A DNA stretch of 64,000 bases from Actinomycetales bacterium. GTDB lineage: Bacteria > Actinomycetota > Actinomycetes > Mycobacteriales > Micromonosporaceae. Position 1 is the stretch's first letter; each line of letters starts with the position of its first letter. The position numbers and the translations under genes were made by a program. Shown here piece after piece: positions 41,523-43,670 of this stretch. The stretch spans positions 1 to 64,000 of the forward strand of contig PKFB01000064.1 in NCBI GenBank assembly GCA_002919305.1. Direction: 5' to 3'. Under the pieces are notes generated by a model. It searched no databases, was not told the origin of the DNA, and saw only the letters and a program-made list of their open reading frames with translations.

Positions 41523-42911
41523 TCAGTCGGTGGGATCCGGTACCGGGATCCGCTGCCAGTTCAGGCCATCCCTGGAGATGTGGAACGCGGTCGGATCCCA
41601 GGTGTAGAAACCGCCCTCCACCGGCGTCACATACGTCGCGAGGGCTGCGGTCCCCACCTCTCGCCGCAAGTCCACCCGTTCCCAGGTCACGCCACGGTCG
41701 GTGCTGAGGAAGAAGCTGTCGTACCTCGTGAGATTCATGATCAGCATCCCGCCGTCTTCGTGAACCCCGATTGGTGGCCTTCCAAGGCTTTCTCCGTTTT
41801 CGGAGACGGTGGAATCGAGCTGACTCCAGGTCGCTCCACCGTCGTCACTGTGGAAGAGCGCCACTAGCCTGTGAGAGGGGTAAACGTCCCAATTGGGGTA
41901 ATCTGCGCGGACCAGAACGGCGTAGGCGGTCACGCCATCATGGGTGCCCACGGAGAACCGGTACGCCTCGTTCTCCGAATTCTGTCCGATCGGAGCCGTC
42001 CAGGTGTGCCAGGTTCGACCCCGGTCGTGACTGACGGCGATCGCGGGGCTCTGGGTGGCCGGATCGGTACCCGCCACCCAGAGCCCCGCCGAGGTGGGGA
42101 TGTAGGGAGATGGGGACAAGTCAGTCAGGGGTGGCTGGTAAGCCAGCGGGGCGATCACTCCAGTGGCCAAGTCGATCGAGACGAGGGGGCAGCTCGCGCT
42201 GGTGAAGAACTCATGGCAGGCGAGTAACCGGCTGCCCTCGGGAACCTCATCGAATGGCTCGTCGCTGACGGTTACCTCCTGCCACGTCTCACCGTTATCG
42301 GAGCTGTATCTCCACTCGACACCAGCGACGAGGTCTGGGAATGACGCCTGAAGGGCCTGCTCGGAATCGGAGTCAGGGTGTGCGTCGGGCGCCTCGGGCG
42401 TACTGGTGCCGTTGGAGCTGGAGAAGGACAGCAGCAGGTGGTCATCGCCCAGAGGGACCACGGTGGGGGGCTGGTAATCAACCAGAAGTGAATAGGCATT
42501 CTGACTTGGGTCGGTACCGAGGCTTGGGCGAATATCCAGCTCCGGGAGGGGATTGCTATCCCAATTTTCGCCGCCGTCGGTGGTGACGGTTAACCAGCGC
42601 TCACACGTTGTCATCCGACATCTTTCGGTATAGGCGTACAGCTGGTCGATACTGGCGGCGAATAGTGCCTGGTGCAGGTACGTGGGGATTCTGGATGTCT
42701 CTTCCGCGATTGGCTCGCCGTCCCGGTTGGCGAGCACCACGCCGACACCGGCGACGCCGGCGATGACAGCGGCCCCTGTCAACGCAGCGGCGATCCGGTA
42801 ACGGCGGCGGGTTTGAAGTTGGTGAGCGCGTGTCTGGATCACATCGAACCCCGGTTGGAGCGTGACACGTTCGATCTCCTCGCGGAGCCGGTTAAATTCC
42901 GGCTCGTACAT
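41523..42911 (-). CDS. Single-pass membrane protein with extracellular Asp-box (sialidase-like) propeller
   Basis: 462 aa. Residues 1-37 are cytoplasmic and charged; 38-61 form one TM helix (YRIAAALTGAAVIAGVAG-VGVVL); the rest is extracellular. Five complete Asp boxes (S/T-x-D-x-G-x-x-W) are at 110-117, 203-210, 294-301, 355-362 and 403-410, with a shortened sixth (SRDGLNW) at 446-452, the repeat of sialidase/BNR beta-propellers. Cysteines pair up at 98/103 and 232/241. No sialidase catalytic set was recognised. It overlaps the ECF sigma gene by 20 nt, so it is probably the sigma factor's membrane partner or anti-sigma. No zinc anti-sigma motif (HxxxCxxC) is present. Confidence 0.82.
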   Translation of the reverse strand: MYEPEFNRLREEIERVTLQPGFDVIQTRAHQLQTRRRYRIAAALTGAAVIAGVAGVGVVLANRDGEPIAEETSRIPTYLHQALFAASIDQLYAYTERCRMTTCERWLTVTTDGGENWDSNPLPELDIRPSLGTDPSQNAYSLLVDYQPPTVVPLGDDHLLLSFSSSNGTSTPEAPDAHPDSDSEQALQASFPDLVAGVEWRYSSDNGETWQEVTVSDEPFDEVPEGSRLLACHEFFTSASCPLVSIDLATGVIAPLAYQPPLTDLSPSPYIPTSAGLWVAGTDPATQSPAIAVSHDRGRTWHTWTAPIGQNSENEAYRFSVGTHDGVTAYAVLVRADYPNWDVYPSHRLVALFHSDDGGATWSQLDSTVSENGESLGRPPIGVHEDGGMLIMNLTRYDSFFLSTDRGVTWERVDLRREVGTAALATYVTPVEGGFYTWDPTAFHISRDGLNWQRIPVPDPTD

Positions 42912-43530
42912 GGCGTAACTCCCTGGTCACGGGCGTGGGCATGACAGCGCTGCCGTATGCCGAACCGTCCCAGGAGCTGCTGCTCCAGGAAGTGATCGGC
43001 GCGTCGCCCACCGCACTTTCCCGCTGGTCGTCATCCCGCAGCAGATCAGCGAGGGCCGCTCGGCCCCGATGGAGGCGGGACTTCACTGTTCCGGGGGCGA
43101 TCTGAAGCGTCGCGGCGATCTGCTCCACGCTCAGATCGCCCAGGTAGTACAGGACCACGGCTTCCCGGATCGGTCGTGGCAGCCGCCGTAATGCGGAAAC
43201 CAGAACGACTCGGTCGGCGGACAGCCCCGGTACCGAATCTGGCTGCCGTTCCACCCGCCCGGTGCGGACGAGCGTGTCGAACAGTAATCGCCGTCGCCGC
43301 CGGCTCCGGACAAGATTGATCGCGACCGTTCGCAGCCAGGCCTCCGGGTTGGTTAGTTCCAGGAACTCGTGCCGCTTCGCCAGCGCTCTGGCGAAGGTCT
43401 CCTGCACGATGTCTTGTGCCTCGGCGTGGTCACCAGTGAGCCCATACACGGTGACGACCAAGCGTCGGTAGTGCGCCTGATACGCCTGCCGTACGGCTTC
43501 GGGCGCATCCACAAGGTCTCCCTCGTTCAT
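42892..43530 (-). CDS. ECF-type RNA polymerase sigma factor
   Basis: 212 aa from [21 protein letters not shown]; longer in-frame starts reach 43584 and 43641. Region 2 is [30 protein letters not shown]...[20 protein letters not shown]; region 4 is [46 protein letters not shown]-terminal Ser/Asp tail of about 45 residues follows. Upstream on the coding strand GGGAACC followed by GGTCTT after about 17 nt resembles an ECF-type promoter, which would make it autoregulated (weak). No ribosome-binding site precedes the chosen ATG. Translationally coupled to the Asp-box membrane protein. Confidence 0.9.
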
Positions 43531-43670
43531 CGACAGCGTTTGAGACGCCGCTGACGGCGTCCCATGAGCAAGACCTCCGACCATGCGGTGTGGTTCCCGG
43601 GAAGTTCGATCACCGCTTCGCGACCAGCCCCGGCTGCACATGCGGCGAGCTAGCTGTCAGAATTCGGGGC

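Follow-up and report, generated by a model that had tools for sequence, protein, structure and literature searches.

We know of no signal for most actinobacterial ECF sigma factors. CnrY, an anti-sigma with a short cytoplasmic domain, belongs to the cobalt-nickel system of Cupriavidus and carries no propeller. Class II anti-sigma domains, of which that of CnrY is the example, are short, with two helices wrapping σ4 and σ2, and the domains of class I average 101 ± 33 residues (PMC7406223). In ECF52 (SCO4117), the sigma factor is fused to a zinc finger, a transmembrane (TM) segment, and an extracellular carbohydrate-binding domain; in ECF57, with an example from Singulisphaera, the ECF sigma factor has C-terminal WD40-like repeats (PMC8999054).

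The stretch of DNA analyzed here (64,000 nucleotides, referred to as the window) is the start of contig C13 in the 4.94-Mb genome of a soil-type actinobacterium. It contains an ECF sigma gene overlapping a gene for a membrane-anchored protein with an Asp-box propeller. We consider it quite likely that the two constitute an autoregulated signaling unit, in which the partner protein is the anti-sigma, its tail holds the sigma factor, and its propeller is the sensor. The features of the locus are listed below.

43570–43597, minus strand: likely autoregulatory promoter of the ECF type (GGAACC-N16-GGTCTT), 40 nt before the sigma ATG
42892–43530, minus strand: coding sequence of a SigE-like ECF sigma factor (Pfam Sigma70_r2/r4_2 and TIGR02983 matches, promoter directly upstream)
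41523–42911, minus strand: membrane-anchored Asp-box propeller protein of 462 residues, candidate anti-sigma (translation, Pfam, 20-nt overlap with the sigma gene)
42798–42911, minus strand: cytoplasmic tail, residues 1–38, candidate sigma-binding domain (two predicted helices around a conserved QPxF..V..RA motif)
42732–42797, minus strand: TM helix, about residues 39–60 (hydrophobicity; the model helix runs to residue 54)
41526–42728, minus strand: extracellular Asp-box beta-propeller, residues 62–462, about seven blades (Pfam, AlphaFold2, fold matches)
42561–42584, minus strand: Asp box 1, TTDGGENW, residue 110
42282–42305, minus strand: Asp box 2, SSDNGETW, residue 203
42009–42032, minus strand: Asp box 3, SHDRGRTW, residue 294
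41826–41849, minus strand: Asp box 4, SDDGGATW, residue 355
41682–41705, minus strand: Asp box 5, STDRGVTW, residue 403
41556–41576, minus strand: shortened Asp box 6, SRDGLNW, residue 446 (S446, D448, G449, and W452 conserved)

The sigma gene, its neighbors, and its promoter

The sigma protein matched Pfam Sigma70_r2 (E 6e-13, 48.9 bits, cut-off 24) and Sigma70_r4_2 (E 1e-14, 54.3 bits, cut-off 25.7). It has σ2 and σ4 domains only, and is an ECF (group 4) sigma factor. It resembles the SigE-family sigma factors of actinomycetes (TIGR02983) in matching that model along its length (E 8.5e-38), and differs from them in its score of 129.8 bits, which falls short of the curated threshold, 141.55. 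It can be regarded as a close relative of the SigE family without formal membership. A second SigE-type sigma gene is present in the same genome (L100, G000:C8:143372-143827); the gene next to it encodes a protein without Asp boxes, whose TM segment is at residue 177.

The initial annotation had extended the sigma gene to 43641, which is probably too far upstream. The start at ATG 43530 is preferred because the conserved promoter at 43570–43597 lies inside the longer reading frame and homologues begin near this ATG; the protein is probably of about 212 residues. Both genes are on the minus strand, and translation bore out the 20-nt overlap first noted between them, with the sigma stop at 42892 falling inside the partner gene.

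The flanking genes are trpS (divergent) and a membrane-protein gene (convergent), and the divergent arrangement of sigma gene and trpS recurs at about 24 homologous loci. A separate, conventional anti-sigma had been named as something that would tell against control by the partner; no second gene of this kind adjoins the pair. No third gene is conserved downstream across homologous loci, and the unit is therefore taken to consist of two genes. A plasmid search gave no match. It may be noted that two ORFs resembling sugar ABC transporter permeases lie upstream in the window (37884–39778); as far as seen, their presence alongside the sigma unit is not conserved.

The promoter was the sole ECF-type match in the window, where 0.04 were expected. 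The closest homologues carry TGCAACC-N16-GGTCCTT 40–70 nt before the sigma gene, and of the 29 closest Asp-box pairs, 18 have AACC-N16-GGTC at most 130 nt upstream, where the background rate is 0.002. The perfect matches proved, in most of the genomes of relatives that were searched, to be the sigma gene's own promoter. The presence of this promoter upstream of the sigma gene, here and in most of the closest homologues, implies that the operon is likely to be autoregulated. When one mismatch was allowed, matches in the relatives were no more frequent than those to a reversed-pattern control, so that no wider regulon can be named.

The extracellular propeller and its possible ligand

Hydrophobicity analysis of the partner protein gave one strong TM segment preceded by about 38 residues, in agreement with the short tail (37 residues) and single helix first proposed. 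The topology, assigned from a positive-inside Arg run, has the N terminus in the cytoplasm and the C terminus outside; together with the single TM helix and the co-encoded ECF sigma factor, this is the layout of a membrane anti-sigma. The ectodomain matched Pfam BNR (E 2e-12). All five complete Asp boxes originally listed, and the shortened sixth, were recovered, and when the ectodomain was shuffled 20,000 times, none of the shuffles reached even 3 boxes. AlphaFold2 predicted a propeller of about seven blades for the partner (mean pLDDT 70.7), as the presence of Asp boxes had led the initial annotation to expect; modeling the ectodomain by itself gave a poorer result (pLDDT 63.5). With its repeated S-x-D-x-G-x-x-W hairpins in a propeller, the domain is an Asp-box beta-propeller. 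A pair of cysteines near its start (98 and 103) is largely conserved and probably forms a disulphide.

Foldseek matches to the ectodomain comprised sortilin (the top match, E 2.6e-8), GH74, GH93, GH33, and DAIP, with DAIP-thermolysin (6fhp) at E 2.4e-6 and a TM score (0.46 by target) among the better ones. A Pfam Sortilin-Vps10 match was also above cut-off. Sortilin binds peptides, and the Streptomyces protein DAIP binds thermolysin-type proteases. These matches favor a form of the anti-sigma reading in which the propeller would bind a protein or peptide, such as a protease outside the cell, a partner that is secreted, or a protein of the envelope, and in this way control sigma release; we hold it as a tentative possibility. 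Against it, VIA-align returned a broad propeller set, with S9 peptidases, GH74, and PQQ-type enzymes all at Z about 13–15, and a viral fold library gave generic propellers only. Because the propeller matches are so broad, the modeled fold does not identify the ligand.

The initial annotation had pointed to a glycan or cell-wall ligand. On that account the partner is again an anti-sigma, and its propeller is a receptor for such a ligand or a degenerate sialidase-type glycosidase, as might be suggested by the sialidases and GH74 xyloglucanases among the fold matches and by a PDB sequence match to a xyloglucanase (E 0.003). However, the peptide-binding sortilin matches equally well or better, both in fold and in Pfam, and a model at pLDDT about 70 does not define a ligand surface. 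Asp boxes have a structural role, and their involvement in ligand binding is called 'highly unlikely' (PMC2716378). Moreover, no Arg or Glu was conserved at 60% across 108 aligned ectodomains, and the sialidase-type [YFVIL]RIP motif was found in 2 of 107, the SRIP near residue 75 of the window protein not being of that form. The features of a GH33 sialidase (Arg triad, Tyr/Glu nucleophile pair, and [FY]RIP) were not found in the propeller. Since neither a conserved Arg or Glu nor the RIP motif marks the family, enzymatic sialidase activity appears unlikely, and the proposed glycan or cell-wall ligand, which these results leave unsupported, is itself an unlikely reading.

Conserved pairing and the cytoplasmic tail

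The gene following the sigma gene was inspected for 204 distinct sigma homologues. At 190 of them, it was an overlapping or adjacent gene for a single-TM partner with an Arg-rich tail, and 115 of these 190 partners were Asp-box proteins, defined by two or more strict boxes (mean 3.3 boxes, against 0.01 in shuffles). Grouped by sigma identity, Asp-box partners made up 28/32 (at least 55% identity), 56/70 (50–55%), 29/54 (45–50%), and 2/38 (40–45%). On the sigma tree, the Asp-box label required 8 changes, against 54 in shuffles. The two genes overlapped by 8 nt in 75 of the 115 pairs, and the carriers include Phytohabitans, Plantactinospora, Kribbella, and Actinokineospora. In a reverse search, an ECF gene was directly upstream at 28 of 30 propeller-retrieved loci. 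Direct searching of the genome contigs with the propeller found no relatives; the sigma alignment did retrieve them. The pairing suspected from this one locus is thus conserved, and the comparison marks sigma and partner genes as a conserved unit.

Several loci deserve separate mention. One order-level relative (genome G040, L050–L086) has at least 14 paralogous sigma/Asp-box pairs, which suggests many parallel channels. Tandem duplicated sigma/propeller pairs occur in several genomes, at L213, L214, L218, L248, L067, and L069, several of them beside trpS. Two propeller homologues (L006:784-2328 and L015:934-2157) had no ECF gene detected alongside, and may be orphans or detached partners. At L007:408-2844, a lipoprotein gene comes after a divergent ECF gene and an Asp-box partner, and might supply another subfamily with a third component.

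The tails of the Asp-box partners follow a consensus of roughly [FL]..LR..V...QP.[FL]..V..RA.RRRR, with the proline present in 113 of 116. The tail falls within no Pfam or NCBIfam family, and no known anti-sigma family was found in it by sequence search. Searching the PDB with the single sequence gave nothing, including no match to CnrY, and the profile gave weak unrelated matches only (GspL, E 0.004), which were taken as chance. AlphaFold2 predicted, with moderate confidence, tail helices at residues 3–17 and 22–54, separated at QPG. The class I zinc signature Hx3Cx2C is absent, the first cysteine being residue 98, outside the membrane. With about 38 cytoplasmic residues and no anti-sigma family match, the tail does not qualify as a class I domain without zinc either; its length and its two predicted helices (3–17 and 22 onward, at the same moderate confidence) are those of class II, in which the domain has fewer than about 50 residues and two helices.

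Partners of more distant sigma factors have a related tail and unrelated ectodomains. When tail profiles lacking the Arg run and the TM segment were compared between Asp-box partners and partners with other ectodomains, the hhalign probability was 92%, against 0.4% for a reversed control. Among the ectodomains at L103–L162 are PQQ, PASTA, L,D-transpeptidase (YkuD), and PknH_C-like domains, and many show no known domain. Because of the related tail, the two predicted helices, the likeness to CnrY in length and helix layout, and the absence of the zinc signature, the best reading of the partner is a short-tailed membrane anti-sigma, possibly class-II-like, and we infer that the tail binds the sigma factor.

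Across the family, sigma and tail distances were correlated (r 0.70), and those of sigma and ectodomain more so (0.79); within a single genome (15 pairs), neither reached significance. Co-inheritance explains much of the sigma-tail correlation. In a direct coupling analysis, the top sigma-tail pair, a Leu of sigma region 2 with tail Ala29, scored 1.31 against 1.06 for ectodomain controls; it was above shuffles, and is marginal at a Meff of 63, too few effective sequences for it to count as evidence. In the pairing, tail, ectodomain-conservation, and coupling analyses, the window protein was entered with the sigma protein joined to it, which alters the C-terminal end of that one row and nothing else; the 20,000 ectodomain shuffles used the clean sequence. 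Distances and coupling together are weakly compatible with tail-sigma binding.

A broader reading, which we hold in even balance, is that [FL]..LR..V...[QP]P.[FL]..[VI]..RA.RRRR defines an uncatalogued, widespread short anti-sigma domain of actinobacteria, in which one tail is combined with many unrelated sensor ectodomains and the propeller would be a major lineage reading an extracellular protein, peptide, or glycan. If so, the conserved tail and exchangeable ectodomains would offer a rule for finding actinobacterial anti-sigmas and their signals.

The partner might instead be a co-transcribed target or accessory, for instance an envelope protein switched on by the sigma factor, with the Arg-rich tail only setting its topology. 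Positive-inside tails are ordinary, and since the operon looks autoregulated, every gene transcribed together with the sigma gene would count as a target of the sigma factor. Nevertheless, the tail is conserved at non-Arg positions (Pro, F/L, V/I, and RA), it is common to partners of related sigma factors with unrelated ectodomains, and no other anti-sigma gene is adjacent; a mere target or accessory is therefore improbable. Chance adjacency of two unrelated genes, in favor of which nothing was found, has a negligible probability and was rejected on the conserved pairing: sigma and Asp-box genes adjoin in 115 pairs from many genera, and most of these pairs overlap by 8 nt.

The proposed unit and its closest known systems

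Taking the gene architecture, the pairing, the tail motif, and the promoter as read from the DNA, we propose that the partner, as anti-sigma, wraps the sigma factor with the two helices of its tail of about 38 residues and would keep it from RNA polymerase, as short class II domains do. The Asp-box propeller outside would be the sensor. A surface ligand or binding partner may cause a change in the propeller or expose the stalk, upon which the tail would release the sigma factor, with regulated proteolysis as the probable preceding step; peptidases of the M50 (site-2-protease) type are encoded in the genome. The free sigma factor would then transcribe its own operon from AACC-N16-GGTC, and probably a few further targets as well. 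As the input domain of an ECF system a propeller would be unusual, and the autoregulation would provide a ready reporter for ligand testing.

The Asp-box propeller fold is shared with sortilin/Vps10, GH74, GH33, and DAIP, none of which is known to us with a sigma-associated tail; the present propeller differs from GH74 and GH33 in that the glycosidase catalytic residues are not conserved. In the papers that a literature search covered, ECF anti-sigmas were nowhere connected with an ectodomain of the Asp-box, BNR, sialidase, or propeller type; the main ECF surveys (actinobacterial signaling, 2015; re-classification, 2021) may carry an earlier notice. The layout had initially not been recognized as one already described; this stands insofar as no published description was found in those papers, and fails for the tail, which in its shortness is within the known range (class II CnrY, PMC7406223).

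With RpoE-RseA and SigW-RsiW, the pair shares a co-transcribed ECF sigma factor and single-TM partner, the cytoplasmic N terminus and extracytoplasmic C terminus of the latter, and a likely autoregulatory promoter. It differs from them in its tail of about 38 residues, against the average of 101 for a class I domain (PMC7406223), and in its Asp-box propeller ectodomain. Class II CnrY, the partner of CnrH, has a short two-helix cytoplasmic domain, comparable to the helix-break-helix predicted here, but at the sequence level no match of the present tail to CnrY, or to any other solved anti-sigma, could be detected. Like ECF52 (PMC8999054), the system combines an actinobacterial ECF sigma factor and a putative binding domain outside the cytoplasm, whereas ECF52 is one fused zinc-finger protein with another sensor and the present system is a two-gene pair. 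ECF57 also links an ECF sigma factor to propeller-type repeats (PMC8999054); there the repeats are of the WD40 type and on the sigma factor itself, whereas here the propeller is carried by a separate partner.
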